Position numbers and translations under genes: made by a program. A stretch of 64,000 bases of DNA from contig NZ_FOVJ01000002.1 of assembly GCF_900115125.1 (NCBI RefSeq), forward strand, positions 124,001-188,000. Reading direction: 5' to 3'. Under the pieces are notes generated by a model, which saw only the letters and a program-made list of their open reading frames with translations, was not told the DNA's origin and did no database searches. Position 1 is the stretch's first letter. Every line of letters begins with the position of its first letter. The stretch comes from Nitrosospira briensis (GTDB lineage: Bacteria > Pseudomonadota > Gammaproteobacteria > Burkholderiales > Nitrosomonadaceae). Of this stretch, positions 39,700-50,619 are shown one piece after another.

Positions 39700-39960
39700 A
39701 GTTCCGTATACGTTCAAGGCCGGTATCCGGGCTTGCAGGATTTGACGTATCGCCTTCCCATGAACTGGAGAATTCACAGTGGCCTCGCGGACCTCCGAAT
39801 TGCTCAGAGGTTCCTTGATTGATACGCCCACACCTGCTCACCGTTGCGGGGGCAGCCCAGGCGTCCGGGAAGCTCTCAATGACCGTATGACTATTCAGAG
39901 CGTCCCGTACCTGGTTCCCGTTTAACTCGACCATGAAAAGCGATCGAAGCACCTCAAACG
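39700..39960 (-). promoter_or_regulatory. Cobalamin (B12) riboswitch
   Basis: Read on the minus strand, the leader shows the ordered cobalamin-riboswitch elements: GGTGC (39949-39953), then CGGGAACCAGGT (around 39908-39919), the highly conserved GCTGCCCCCGCAACGGT (39840-39856), CCACTGTGAATTC, GGGAAGGCGAT, and an AAGCCCGGATACCGGCC B12-box-like element (39718-39734). A TAGAAT -10-like element at 39968-39973 would start transcription at about 39960. The switch lies about 80 bases upstream of the btuB start and should repress expression when adenosylcobalamin is plentiful. Confidence 0.9.
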
Positions 39961-40133
39961 TGGCGGGAATTCTACCAGAATCCCCGAGCCCGAGCTGAAG
40001 CGCTGGACAAAATGATTCTCTGTCGCGATGCCGGATTTATCGCTATTTGAATCGCTGCCGATTACTTGAAATTACATTCGGAAGGCCACCTTAGCAGTTG
40101 ACTCACCACGGATTTCCAAACTATAGTGATCTG

Positions 40134-40639: not shown

Positions 40640-40719
40640 TACGTATCACAGATTCAGGTCAGCTCGAACAAATTTCACATTTGCGTTTATTCGAGGTACG
40701 CGAAAATGGGCAAAGGTTG

Positions 40720-40896
40720 TTCCCTGCGGTGTTTGTTAAGGCCTATATTCTTTGAACCAACTTTTTAAGAATTGGTTACAAACCAGAGCGATGCTGTTGT
40801 GCGCGTCCTACACGGAAGCGCCTGATGCATCCGGTGAGTGACCGCCTTGGACCTTAAGGTTCAAGATAAATGGTCTGACGGCATTTGCGGGGACTT
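40720..40896 (+). ncRNA. ssrS: 6S RNA
   Basis: About 80 bases after zapA, the sequence TCCCTGCGGTGTTTGTTAAG opens the RNA and GGCATTTGCGGGGA closes it, forming the end stem. Inner conserved parts are TCTTTGAACCAAC on the 5' side and GGTTCAAGATAAATGGTCT on the 3' side, which bracket the large central bubble that mimics an open promoter. The RNA binds and sequesters sigma-70 RNA polymerase in stationary phase. The zapA-ssrS order is conserved in proteobacteria. The ends are estimates; a terminator follows immediately. Confidence 0.88.
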
Positions 40897-40908
40897 ATTC
40901 AGCAAACA

Positions 40909-41076: not shown

Positions 41077-44000
41077 TCAATAATTCCGCCCCTTCGACCC
41101 CGGCACAGGACGGTTTTTGCTGGTCACCCGCATGTCGAGGCGTTGCTTTATTTCTGCAGGGTCATGGCTGGGTTTTTCGCCGCCAGTCAATTGCACCCAC
41201 TTGGCTACTGAAGGAACACCCTGCTTGTTAACCAGGAACAGCATGTACCATCCCGGAGGGGCGATGTTCTGCTCGGTCAGCACCTTTACATGCAAGTGAC
41301 AAAAATCGTGTGCTTCGAATTCAAGGTCTACTACGCGCTGACCTGTTTCCAATGAATGGGTTGTCGCCATTGGCCAGATCAGTTCGACCCATTGAATCTC
41401 TTTTGCCTGCGGCGTATGGATTTTGAAATCCCCACCGTAAAGGATCTGCTGCGGTACCGTTTCGATGAAGGGCCGGGGCCCACGGAACAGATATGGAGGA
41501 TGATAGATTTCAAGGCGTAACTCGTCGTCTCGCCTGTTCGGGTTGGAACCGGCTGCGAGCACGCGACCGTCGGGCAACAGGAGAGCGATCGAGTGGTACA
41601 TCCGTGCGGCTTGGGCCGTGGCAGCCGTAATCCAGGTATTTGTAGCAGGCTCGTATATCTCTGCCTCCAGGACCGCCGTAGCCGCAATTTCTGATTGGCC
41701 ATTTCCGCCCGAAACAAACACCGTCCGGTCCGGGAGCAGGACTGCATTGATGTGAAAGCGCGCATGAATCATGGGCGCCACCTCTTCAAAAACAGGCTCA
41801 GAGTTTTTTAGATCAATGATATGAGCGCTATTGATGGCCGGATCTCCTCCACCCATGATCATGAACCGCTGCGCTTGGGCGGGCGCCAGCAACACGCTGC
41901 CGCAATGATCCCTGTTCTGGCTGAATCCTTCAGGGAGTGTGACGCTAGTCATTGTACTTGTCGATATATCCAGAAATCCCGGCTGCGGGGCCGCCGGATT
42001 GGGAAACATGTTTCCGCCATCGTAGAATAATCTGCCATCCCGCGTGAGGAACAAGTGCGGGAAGAGAGGCCATTCTTCCTGGATGGGCATCTGAACCCAG
42101 CCACCTACGCTCGAGTAAATTTCCGCACGGTTGGGCCCGCCTGACACGTTGAATACCCTGCCGTCGCCGAGCGTTACCAACGTGGGGTACCATCGCCCTT
42201 CCACCATCGACGCAACGCGAATCCACGACTCGGAGAGAGGATCGAACATATAGCTCGTATCCAGTCCGATGAAGGGCTGTTCGCTATTATCGTATTCCTT
42301 CGTACCACCTGCGACGAGCAAACGTCCATCGGCCAGAAACGATTGGCCGGCGCAGAAAAAATCCACTGGGGTGAAGGGACAAGTAAACTCTCCATTTTCA
42401 TAATCCCAGACTGCGCTACGCAGGCCGGTGGTAAAAAGCTCATCATTGCCCGATCCCGCGAACAACAGGATTTTGCCGGTATGCAAGACAGCACCGTGAA
42501 CGGCGAGGACTGGCGCGGGGCACGGGAGCAGCTCCCACAGCCCTTTCGAAGCGGCTTCCAGGATATCTGGCGATAGCACGGCCGTCATGGGAGCGCCACC
42601 ACCCATGCCACCTATGCCACCCATTCCCGCACCGGCGACGCCGCCAGCCCTAATGGGCATCTCCTCCGCCGCTGCAGGCTGATCCGTGGCAGGCTCGGGG
42701 TGAACATGGGCTGATGCTGGTTCATTATGGTCGCGCAGGCAACGCAGCATGTCGACCGACGGGCATTCGTTCATGCCATTATCAAATGGTAATTCCACTT
42801 CGCACATCCTGCTCACTTCGTCAGATATCCAGATGTGTTGACAGGCACGAACCAGGCCAGCCAAACCCGCCATCATGTGCTCCTCAATATGGCAATGGAA
42901 AAGAAAATCTCCACTAATTCGCACGTGACAAGCGTTTTCCGGCGGATCCCACTGGAACTGCTCGAGCGCGTGCGGAAGCCGCATGGCGGGAGGAACCTCG
43001 GTATCCGTAACAAAGGTTTCGAGAGAACTTAATCCGTGCACGTCGGATGCGCCGCCCAAGCCACCGGGACGCGCCGGAAGCGCCCAGCGAACGGAGTGGG
43101 GATGAAAGTTGTGCCACATACCCGAGACATCCAGGTTGAATATATACCAGCGCAGGCGTTCACCTGTCTCTCCCACAATGGTGGGGGTATTTCCCACGAA
43201 TGCACGGCCGTTCAGGCAGAAATTGGGGATGCCGCCTCCAGCAGAAAATACCGTATGCTCGTGGTTGCCTTCATTACGCCAATCGACAGTCCCGCCGGGG
43301 CGGACCAGAACCAGCGGCGGGACAAACTTGTTATCCTGTATGCTTACGCTGGCGCCGGCCGGCGCGTCCGCCACCACTTGAACCGTCCCGTTCATCGTAG
43401 GACCATGAATCGCACAGTAATAGTTAACAACTGTTGCGTCCGTAAAATTGAAACTGAACGTTTCGTCACGGGTGAGCCGTTCGCTCTGGAATGCCACGCT
43501 GTTCGAACTGCCTGCAAATTGGTGAACAAAGATCGGAACCTCGTGATCTATGCAAGGCGCGGCCGGGTCTCGGACGATCAAGCCGCCAAACAAGCCGAGA
43601 TTGACGGTGCGCGCAACATCGTGCGCGTGATCATGGAATCCCCATGCGCCGATCATATCAGGCGTTACGTCATAAACGTATGTCCATTTCTGACCGGGAA
43701 GAATTTCATCGCTGCGACGTCCGTCTCGCGTCGAAACACCTAAGGGCCATGCCCCGTCGGATTCGATCCCGAACCGTAGTCCATGAATATGAAAACTGTG
43801 ACACTCGTTTTTATCTCCGTTTAAAACGTGTATGTACAGCCGCTCGCCTGGTTTCGCATAGAGCACGCAGCCCGGCATTCTGCGATCCCATGGAGGTTCG
43901 TTGACATCCGCTTCGATCAGCTTCGCCTTGTTAGGGACGGTGTAATGCGAATCAAGGTACTCGCGATAAACCAGTCCATCGGCTGTGCTGGCCAGTATTT

Positions 44001-44145
44001 CCTGCGCGGGTATACGGCCTGATTCATGACCGTGGTTGAACATGCAATCACGTCCAAAGTGACGAGCGCATGCTACAGGTGCAAGCGGGCTGTAATCTGG
44101 TAGTGACTCGATTTTCAGAAAGACGTCGCGGCGGCGAAAATTCAT
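41077..44145 (-). CDS. Fusion of multicopper oxidase and galactose-oxidase-like radical copper oxidase
   Basis: This 1022-residue protein joins two copper enzymes. Residues about 60-440 form a multicopper oxidase: HSFHIHG (His 119, 121), FHDHAHD (171, 173), WHNFHPH (345, 348, 350) and FHCHIEEHMMAGL (His 417, Cys 418, His 419, His 423). Between them lies an extra blue-copper-like module with Cys 244, His 247 and Met 251 (YYCAIHGPTMNG) and, after it, His 297 (NHEHTVF). A Gly/Met-rich linker (about 500-520) leads to a kelch propeller plus DUF1929 domain with the full galactose-oxidase site: Cys 598 (DFFCAG), Tyr 653 (RWYPT), Tyr 850-His 851 (RMYHS) and His 930 (THSLETGQ). No signal peptide is evident. 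GGAGA precedes the ATG. It is divergent from the amidohydrolase gene. Confidence 0.92.
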   Translation of the reverse strand: MNFRRRDVFLKIESLPDYSPLAPVACARHFGRDCMFNHGHESGRIPAQEILASTADGLVYREYLDSHYTVPNKAKLIEADVNEPPWDRRMPGCVLYAKPGERLYIHVLNGDKNECHSFHIHGLRFGIESDGAWPLGVSTRDGRRSDEILPGQKWTYVYDVTPDMIGAWGFHDHAHDVARTVNLGLFGGLIVRDPAAPCIDHEVPIFVHQFAGSSNSVAFQSERLTRDETFSFNFTDATVVNYYCAIHGPTMNGTVQVVADAPAGASVSIQDNKFVPPLVLVRPGGTVDWRNEGNHEHTVFSAGGGIPNFCLNGRAFVGNTPTIVGETGERLRWYIFNLDVSGMWHNFHPHSVRWALPARPGGLGGASDVHGLSSLETFVTDTEVPPAMRLPHALEQFQWDPPENACHVRISGDFLFHCHIEEHMMAGLAGLVRACQHIWISDEVSRMCEVELPFDNGMNECPSVDMLRCLRDHNEPASAHVHPEPATDQPAAAEEMPIRAGGVAGAGMGGIGGMGGGAPMTAVLSPDILEAASKGLWELLPCPAPVLAVHGAVLHTGKILLFAGSGNDELFTTGLRSAVWDYENGEFTCPFTPVDFFCAGQSFLADGRLLVAGGTKEYDNSEQPFIGLDTSYMFDPLSESWIRVASMVEGRWYPTLVTLGDGRVFNVSGGPNRAEIYSSVGGWVQMPIQEEWPLFPHLFLTRDGRLFYDGGNMFPNPAAPQPGFLDISTSTMTSVTLPEGFSQNRDHCGSVLLAPAQAQRFMIMGGGDPAINSAHIIDLKNSEPVFEEVAPMIHARFHINAVLLPDRTVFVSGGNGQSEIAATAVLEAEIYEPATNTWITAATAQAARMYHSIALLLPDGRVLAAGSNPNRRDDELRLEIYHPPYLFRGPRPFIETVPQQILYGGDFKIHTPQAKEIQWVELIWPMATTHSLETGQRVVDLEFEAHDFCHLHVKVLTEQNIAPPGWYMLFLVNKQGVPSVAKWVQLTGGEKPSHDPAEIKQRLDMRVTSKNRPVPGSKGRNY

Positions 44146-49086: not shown

Positions 49087-50619
49087 TTACCCTTCCCTTG
49101 CGTTTCCCTCAACAACAGGTTCCCAGTCCGGCAGGGTCAGGCCGATGTGTAAGTCGCCGGACGGGTCGAAACGGGTGTTCCTGTCCACGATATCCCTTAA
49201 TCTCGACGTATTGTGGATCGCCTTCCACCCGGCGGCGGAAAAAGTATCTTCCTTAAAGACGTATTTGGAGAGCAAGGGATTGGTCAGCGCTTGAGAAAAA
49301 GCATCCACGCCAACCATTCTGAGCATCAAGGGTGGTAATGGTGAATTCGGCACAGGATCTTCCGCAAATAAGCCGACGTAAAATTCGACATCTTCTACAC
49401 GGCCATATGTGTTCCTCAAAAAATCGACCACCCTGACATCCCTGGAAACGTCATCGAAGTGCCGGGGCCTTGGTAGCGACACATATTCCCGATAGTCGGT
49501 ATAGGGGGCCAACTCCCCAAGGCGTCCTTGATCGATGGCGCGAGCTTCAAGACCCAGCAGCGGGTCAGGGGTATTAAACGGGCCGAGCCGGCCTGCTCGT
49601 TGTCCACTTATATCCGTGAATGCCAGACGCAACCCGGCATCCAATAAAAGCTTATTGTTCATGAATGTTTTTTCTACGGCACAGTCATGGCCGTTCCACG
49701 TTATCGCATTCGGGACTAGCGAGTGCCACCGATACAGCAAACTGAATTCCGTTGTAATCCAGTTCGGCTTGTTCCATGGCGCATCCCATGCGACTGACGG
49801 ATCGAGCCGGTATAGACTACGGGGAGAGATATGATTGATATATTCTTCGACGACAATCTTGATGAACAATACGATCACTGTATTTCTTGCTGTCTGAAAT
49901 ACGCGCTCATCATTCCATTGAGGATGGTTTTGTTCGATCTCGCCGGCAAGCCGGTTATGCTCCCGGAGAAATAACGTATTCATCATGGCGATCTGCGGAA
50001 CGGCGTTTGTTCGATCTCCTCCAAAAGCAAAAATTCGAGCACGCAGTTCTTCCAGGCTCGGCGTATCACCCAGAGTACTATCCATTCCGAGCGGCTTATC
50101 GAGGACGGCAAATTCCTCCTTCAGCATGCCGTTATCGAAAAGGAAAGGCGAAAACTCTTCACCTTCGATTAATTGTGACTTCAAACGGCCCCTCTCTCCG
50201 GCGTTCTCACTTCGAAGCCGAAGCGCTTCGGTTTGCCGTGGCAACCGCCCGTAAAGCGGACACATGTCAATCTGATGGTTGGAGGTATTTTGTAGCCGGA
50301 CCTCCTCCGGTTCGCCTGCATCGGGCATGCGCGTGCGAATAAAACCATCGGTCAAATACTGGGCAAATGTTGGAAACAGCAAAGTCGACTTATCGCAAAA
50401 GAGAGGATTCTCATCCTGTTGCCTGAAAAGTTCGAGCAGATCCTCGGTTTTTGGAAGATTTGTCGTTTTTTTTGGCGGCAAATGACGTGCGCTCCACCGC
50501 TGATCTGTAAGAGAGGTCCACGAGGTATAGTCGTGGACGGTACTCAAGGGATGGGGCCTGTGACGGGAAACATTAATTACACCATTGATCGCCTGCGCGT
50601 TCAAATCGTCCGTCGCCAT
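49087..50619 (-). CDS. Cyclooxygenase-like animal-type haem peroxidase/dioxygenase
   Basis: The 510-residue protein belongs to the peroxidase-cyclooxygenase superfamily. Segments line up with cyclooxygenase in order: FAQYLTDGFIRT (distal helix), HQIDMCPLYGRLPRQTEALR, FLREHNRLAGEI, EFSLLYRWHSLVP and TFSAAGWKAIHNTSRL. The proximal haem ligand His 299 and the catalytic Tyr 296 (YRWH) are kept. The distal Gln 87 is kept, but the distal His position is Asp (91). Known relatives oxygenate fatty acids (cyclooxygenases, plant alpha-dioxygenase). No EGF domain, signal peptide or membrane helix is visible. AGGAGA precedes the ATG. The SGNH hydrolase gene lies just downstream. Confidence 0.85.
   Translation of the reverse strand: MATDDLNAQAINGVINVSRHRPHPLSTVHDYTSWTSLTDQRWSARHLPPKKTTNLPKTEDLLELFRQQDENPLFCDKSTLLFPTFAQYLTDGFIRTRMPDAGEPEEVRLQNTSNHQIDMCPLYGRLPRQTEALRLRSENAGERGRLKSQLIEGEEFSPFLFDNGMLKEEFAVLDKPLGMDSTLGDTPSLEELRARIFAFGGDRTNAVPQIAMMNTLFLREHNRLAGEIEQNHPQWNDERVFQTARNTVIVLFIKIVVEEYINHISPRSLYRLDPSVAWDAPWNKPNWITTEFSLLYRWHSLVPNAITWNGHDCAVEKTFMNNKLLLDAGLRLAFTDISGQRAGRLGPFNTPDPLLGLEARAIDQGRLGELAPYTDYREYVSLPRPRHFDDVSRDVRVVDFLRNTYGRVEDVEFYVGLFAEDPVPNSPLPPLMLRMVGVDAFSQALTNPLLSKYVFKEDTFSAAGWKAIHNTSRLRDIVDRNTRFDPSGDLHIGLTLPDWEPVVEGNAREG

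Follow-up and report, generated by a model that had tools for sequence, protein, structure and literature searches.

A predicted single-chain fusion of a multicopper oxidase, a permuted blue-copper domain and a GlxA-like radical copper oxidase in Nitrosospira

The locus and its three-module product

The window, a 64,000-nt stretch of Nitrosospira briensis DNA, contains at 41077-44145 on the minus strand an ORF that is open from ATG to TGA and encodes a 1022-aa product. The preceding in-frame stop lies only four codons 5' of the ATG, and a GGAG sequence occupies positions -10 to -7 relative to it. The gene converges with the 6S RNA, which is encoded downstream of it at 40718-40897 on the plus strand, and with the adjoining zapA; it diverges from an amidohydrolase gene. 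Genes for a PGA_cap protein, a GDSL hydrolase and an animal-type haem peroxidase also surround it. The peroxidase gene (49087-50619, minus strand; PF03098, 2.1e-43) is located 4.9 kb from the fusion and its product, which has no obvious signal peptide at its start, possibly uses H2O2. A cobalamin riboswitch (39701-39971, minus strand) is located upstream of a TonB-dependent receptor gene, which is followed by an ABC transporter gene.

Judged from its ligand motifs, the one chain is predicted to carry ligand sets for six coppers in three modules: a two-domain multicopper oxidase (MCO), a permuted cupredoxin inserted into it and a GlxA-like radical copper oxidase. The original prediction of a fusion between an MCO and a galactose-oxidase-type enzyme was borne out by Pfam matches and by 24 in-frame relatives; its two-part layout described both halves correctly but overlooked the third, permuted cupredoxin at residues ~209-306. 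An assembly or sequencing artefact that fused two genes, whether by a frameshift or as a chimaera, can be ruled out for practical purposes, because the 24 in-frame ORFs from 23 genomes have an identical order of parts, and nothing was found in its favor. We looked for a stop or frameshift between the halves, which would have pointed to such an artefact, and found none, the junction being in frame in 24/24 fusions. The predicted full-length structure is of moderate quality (pLDDT 74.9, pTM 0.65), and residues 461-525 of the model have pLDDT values below 50.

Residues 6-208 (43522-44130, minus strand) comprise a ceruloplasmin-type N-terminal segment, cupredoxin domain 1 with His119, His121, His171 and His173, and the first strand of domain 2, as assigned from Pfam, profile and fold matches. 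The remainder of domain 2 follows the insert at residues 307-475 (42721-43227, minus strand) and contains His345, His348, His350, the His417-Cys418-His419 motif and His423 of the type 1 (T1) and trinuclear sites. Pfam places Cu-oxidase_3 at residues 88-195 (8.2e-10) and Cu-oxidase_2 at residues 307-432 (1.8e-14), and a sequence search of the N-terminal half against solved structures returned ceruloplasmin (1.3e-7) and two-domain laccases (1.6e-6); profile and fold matches confirm that both cupredoxin domains of a laccase/ceruloplasmin-type pair are present. All ten histidines and Cys418 are invariant in the 24 aligned fusions, so that the trinuclear (eight His) and T1 (Cys, two His) ligand motifs are complete in every one. 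Residue 428, from its spacing the likely T1 axial position, is Met in 20/24 fusions and Leu in the four members of the window clade. The NCBIfam models for CopA, CueO, ascorbate oxidase, laccase and PhsA gave only 10-21 bits against cut-offs of 445-950. The half is thus predicted to be a two-domain MCO of the ceruloplasmin/small-laccase type in which both the T1 and the trinuclear ligand sets are complete. SLAC-type two-domain oxidases are homotrimers in which the trinuclear cluster forms between subunits, and because of this mode of assembly the fusion protein is probably a homotrimer as well. In the paralogue clade (including L011, 6697-9759), domain 2 has a His-rich loop ahead of its HCH motif; the loop differs in length between members, and the window protein has almost nothing at this position.

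The ~98 residues between the first strand of domain 2 and the NGRxFxGNTPT motif (residues 209-306; 43228-43521, minus strand) resemble plastocyanin or amicyanin with the two halves swapped. Cys244, His247, Met251 and His297, a T1 ligand set, are invariant in 24/24 fusions, and it follows from the alignment that His297 would complete the predicted site with the other three. Among five fusions scanned with profile halves, three gave the C-terminal half before the N-terminal half: L009 (Copper-bind 60-98 at residues 221-259, Cupredoxin_1 22-57 at 267-300), L036 (420-448 and 459-500) and L077 (363-385 and 395-437); L011 matched only the C-terminal half and L007 neither. When the usual order was restored, the insert gave a single near-full-profile match with 3.3-6.0 additional bits in all three proteins tested (window, L011 and L009). 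A rotation scan against the natural-order cupredoxin of a related genome (L106) gave the best score with the insert rotated near the predicted joint in 24/24 cases, with gains of 1 (L008) to 51 points; for 16 of the 24 inserts the best score was beyond all 200 shuffled-half controls, and for the other eight one to three controls reached it. The scan's natural-order controls were weak: the unrotated form gave the best score for 21 of the 28 but not for seven, with mostly low scores, one row being the reference itself and another (L125) mis-extracted, while L109 and L112 were left out for stops in the extraction. Mean pLDDT per ten residues ranges from 63 to 94 over residues 201-310, and the amicyanin model TIGR02657 scored 28.3 bits at residues 203-257, below its curated cut-off of 110.2. 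Like amicyanin and plastocyanin (PF00127, TIGR02657), the insert has a Cys-x2-His-x1-3-Met loop and a His in the other half, but its halves are reversed and it is nested inside another domain. The insert is therefore best described as a putative circularly permuted plastocyanin-type domain that lies inside domain 2 of the MCO and has all four T1 ligands. We infer that the simplest origin of the permutation is a tandem duplication followed by loss of the outer halves. A narrow search of titles and abstract openings returned no example of natural circular permutation in a blue-copper domain, of which the insert would be a case.

A Gly/Met/Ala-rich linker of low model confidence (residues 476-526; 42568-42720, minus strand) leads to the third module. 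The Gly/Met-rich linker of the original prediction is thus present in the window protein but is not conserved: it varies in length and composition among the fusions, and the MCO and kelch halves nearly abut in the paralogue clade. Residues 527-987 (41185-42567, minus strand) contain a kelch propeller and an early-set domain, with Pfam kelch motifs (Kelch_6), GO-like_E_set at residues 891-985 (6.6e-25), and a fold match that agrees in both the propeller and the galactose-oxidase-like early-set domain. The best solved structure in a sequence search was GlxA (9.2e-81), and the NCBIfam GlxA model NF052501 gave the best match at residues 622-986 (1.8e-108), its score of 363.5 bits being below the curated cut-off of 800, so that the protein is not filed as GlxA itself. 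The copper ligands Tyr653, Tyr850, His851 and His930 are invariant in 24/24 fusions, and Cys598, the candidate residue for the Cys-Tyr cross-link, and Trp652 are retained in 21/24, including the window protein. Together these matches identify a predicted GlxA-like radical copper oxidase site of Cys, Trp, Tyr, Tyr, His and His. Every metal ligand originally named was found at its position, and all are invariant in 24/24 except Cys598 (21/24). The exceptions, L077, L036 and L037, have Ser and Phe in place of Cys598 and Trp652 and retain every MCO and blue-copper ligand. According to the available text of PMC13094651, the equivalent Trp is critical for cofactor formation in GlxA; the oxidase half of these three proteins must therefore do something else. 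L036 and L037 also have an extra domain at residues 1-100, which in L036 weakly resembles transthyretin-type folds (TTR-52, 19.1 bits; cut-off 24.9).

Distribution and history of the fusion

The original prediction had called for the spread of such proteins to be mapped, and the fusion was found in 20 of 125 genomes of the window's family and in MAGs beyond it. With the full-length query at 1e-40, 28 of the 125 genomes matched, 21 of them in the MCO half. Twenty of these 21 contain in-frame fusions (21 ORFs, that of L074 truncated at the N-terminus); the window genome itself has a second fusion (paralogue C10, ~1021 aa) besides the window gene. In the twenty-first, Nitrosospira sp. Nsp11 (G113), the copy is split over several frames; this broken orthologue of the window fusion (L010, 8001-10775) is the nearest locus to the window gene. 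Outside the family, fusions occur in two gammaproteobacterial MAGs (L007, L008) and one acidobacterial MAG (L009). The alignment set held 24 fusion ORFs from 23 genomes, of which alignment A1 contains 18 and profile A2 contains 21, near-copies and L074 being left out. Within the genus, the whole MCO half is present in 7 of 23 genomes, broken in G113 and reduced to short N-terminal pieces in G100 and G095; the gene is therefore accessory, and it seems to be decaying in places.

No MCO half of this kind was found without a kelch half: profile A2 at 1e-20 against 274 genomes of the class matched the window's own genome, a fusion in G288 and, in G298, a piece of 62 residues, and the window MCO half at 1e-25 matched its own genome alone among 398 genomes of the phylum. 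In the acidobacterial phylum, 16 of 297 genomes matched at 1e-30, one of them (G494) including the MCO half. These class and phylum surveys are samples, with two to six candidates scored per genome. A third kelch/early-set protein of the window genome (L012, 6125-8098) is a 657-aa open frame with no MCO half, no obvious signal peptide and, close to the N-terminus, weak similarity to DUF3892.

Three strongly supported fusion clades appear in a tree built from 52 kelch halves (24 from fusions and 28 solo; of 14 new acidobacterial loci, all but L092 and L093 are included). The first holds the window protein, L007, L008 and L009; the second holds 17 members of the window's family, including the paralogue from its own genome; and the third holds the three members that have lost Cys598. 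The three clades are not joined in the tree, and a single origin is not rejected (p-AU 0.281). Independent fusions are unsupported, as AU tests reject none of the groupings tried (p 0.275-0.456). The kelch half of the window protein shares 36-39% identity with the paralogue fusions versus 40% with the solo proteins L080 and L043. Since it is as close to solos as to fusions, the kelch partner may have been exchanged during evolution; the permuted insert, being common to the fusions, points to a single origin of the oxidase half that holds it.

Cellular location and gene neighborhoods

By simple hydropathy, no signal-peptide-like hydrophobic segment was found at the conserved start of 23 fusions. 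Mild hydropathy (1.5-1.8) occurs 5' of the likely start in L067, L037 and L007, and the single high value belongs to L074, whose real N-terminus is missing. A strong hydrophobic segment (at least 2.0) is present within the first 70 codons in 12 of 16 stand-alone kelch relatives, and the locus boundary truncates two of the remaining four. GlxA is an exported protein. Given the lack of a hydrophobic segment at their starts, a point that the original prediction did not raise, the fusions look cytoplasmic or exported by another route. A shared N-terminal tag is not apparent: when residues 1-75 were compared with the genome, the two fusions were the sole matches, and the next hit had an E value of 0.29.

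Amidohydrolase and PGA_cap-like genes, a TonB receptor and an ABC transporter also surround the broken Nsp11 copy. No conserved operon partner was seen; the neighbors in L007 and L009 differ, and the most widely shared set among 17 paralogue-clade flanks is present in eight. Five of nine 19-kb neighborhoods from the paralogue clade contain tyrosinase genes at 1.6-2.0 kb from the fusion; two kinds occur, and they are found on different sides of it. These nine were picked after tyrosinase had appeared in 4 of 17 shorter flanks, and each of the 23 genus genomes has two to five tyrosinase-domain matches (some of them gene pieces; none in 14 control genomes), so that this nearness is no more than a hint. 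In the window's own genome, the nearest tyrosinase is ~50 kb from the paralogue fusion, and there is none on the window's contig. At L134 (10187-12507), L135 (8885-11105) and L136 (8545-10773), in three genomes of the genus, genes for a 299-aa tyrosinase and a 244-269-aa protein are divergent from the fusion, with a short protein between the two in L134 and L135; Pfam gave no match for the two smaller L134 proteins. L076 (G110), a relative of L012, lies ~3 kb from a tyrosinase match.

Possible roles of the joined modules

The original prediction proposed that the fusion could couple O2 handling, copper loading or radical-cofactor maturation in one chain, and we treat this as a hypothesis. Radical copper oxidases depend on redox or maturation partners (PMC9770985, PMC4736821, as far as their available text goes). 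They need a one-electron oxidant, supplied in vitro by HRP, and a fungal cognate peroxidase activates its radical copper oxidase without substrate (PMC9770985), while maturation of Streptomyces GlxA requires DtpA and Sco at low copper (PMC4736821). The partners in the available text of the cited papers are separate peroxidases.

The reading we prefer, though tentatively, is that the laccase half and the blue-copper relay activate the radical site in the same chain using O2. The radical half would oxidize an alcohol or aldehyde and yield H2O2; its site would rest in a one-electron-reduced, inactive form that needs a one-electron oxidant; the inserted relay would pass that electron from the radical site to the laccase half; and the laccase half would hand it to O2, switching the enzyme on, and keeping it on, without a separate peroxidase. 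With the O2-reducing partner and the relay built in, the activation of bacterial radical copper oxidases could be addressed by single-residue changes in one recombinant protein. Several observations count against this scheme: the full-length structural model is moderate, Cys598 and Trp652 are lost in 3/24 fusions, the linker is variable, the kelch halves are no closer to one another than to some solo proteins and do not group in the tree, and the missing signal peptide at face value places the protein in the cytoplasm, an odd place for such enzymes. The full picture of a self-activating, possibly intracellular radical oxidase with a permuted blue-copper relay, six coppers per chain and probably eighteen per trimer is slightly more doubtful than self-activation itself.

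Nearly as plausible to us is a bifunctional oxidase with no internal electron transfer, in which the laccase half would oxidize phenols or metal ions and reduce O2 to water, the radical half would make H2O2 and aldehydes, and the fusion would merely co-locate the two activities, possibly as part of quinone or melanin-like chemistry that also involves tyrosinase. The tyrosinase genes in five of nine neighborhoods, the haem peroxidase near the window gene and the intact laccase half of the three Cys598-less fusions are consistent with it; however, the tyrosinase association is weak and absent near both fusions of the window's own genome, and the invariance of a third, electron-transfer copper domain is left unexplained. 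We consider it rather unlikely that the architecture serves copper handling, with the MCO half providing Cu(II) for Cys-Tyr formation, either as a cuprous oxidase or as a copper store, and with Met- and His-rich segments binding copper. In one proposal, Cu(I) bound to Sco is oxidized by DtpA before it is passed to GlxA (PMC4736821), and the Met-rich linker of the window protein and the His-rich loop in MCO domain 2 of the paralogue clade would fit such a role, yet these segments differ between clades, and, in the available text of the same paper, copper addition alone rescues GlxA maturation in partner mutants. The substitutions of Cys598 by Ser and Trp652 by Phe in 3/24 fusions, the broken Nsp11 copy and the short relics in G100 and G095 could also mean that the radical half is a structural or regulatory partner, non-catalytic in some or all members; retention of Cys598, Trp652 and the four copper ligands in 21/24, including the window protein, makes this improbable.

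The original prediction allowed that the fusion might already be well characterized. Titles and abstract openings in a full-text literature resource, with few subscription papers covered, gave no earlier description of a fusion between an MCO and a radical copper oxidase, and neither 'multicopper' nor 'cupredoxin' occurs in the available text of PMC11267884. None of the parts is new in itself; within the literature searched, the novelty lies in their combination and in the permuted insert, and the enzyme design, which is real, is seemingly undescribed. Ammonia oxidizers thereby gain a conserved copper enzyme. We know of no two-domain laccase, SLAC and Ssl1 included, with an inserted cupredoxin or a radical oxidase half. 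Ceruloplasmin and factors V and VIII are six-domain proteins or coagulation cofactors and, unlike the window protein, have neither a kelch half nor an inserted plastocyanin. GlxA of Streptomyces lividans (PDB 4unm, 5lxz) has no MCO half, whereas the window protein has no counterpart to positions ~114-226 of the 4unm sequence and no apparent signal peptide. Closest in principle is the fungal AlcOx with its tandem haem peroxidase (PMC9770985, available text), likewise a radical copper oxidase with a one-electron redox partner; there the partner is a separate haem peroxidase, whereas in the window protein it would be a multicopper oxidase in the same chain.
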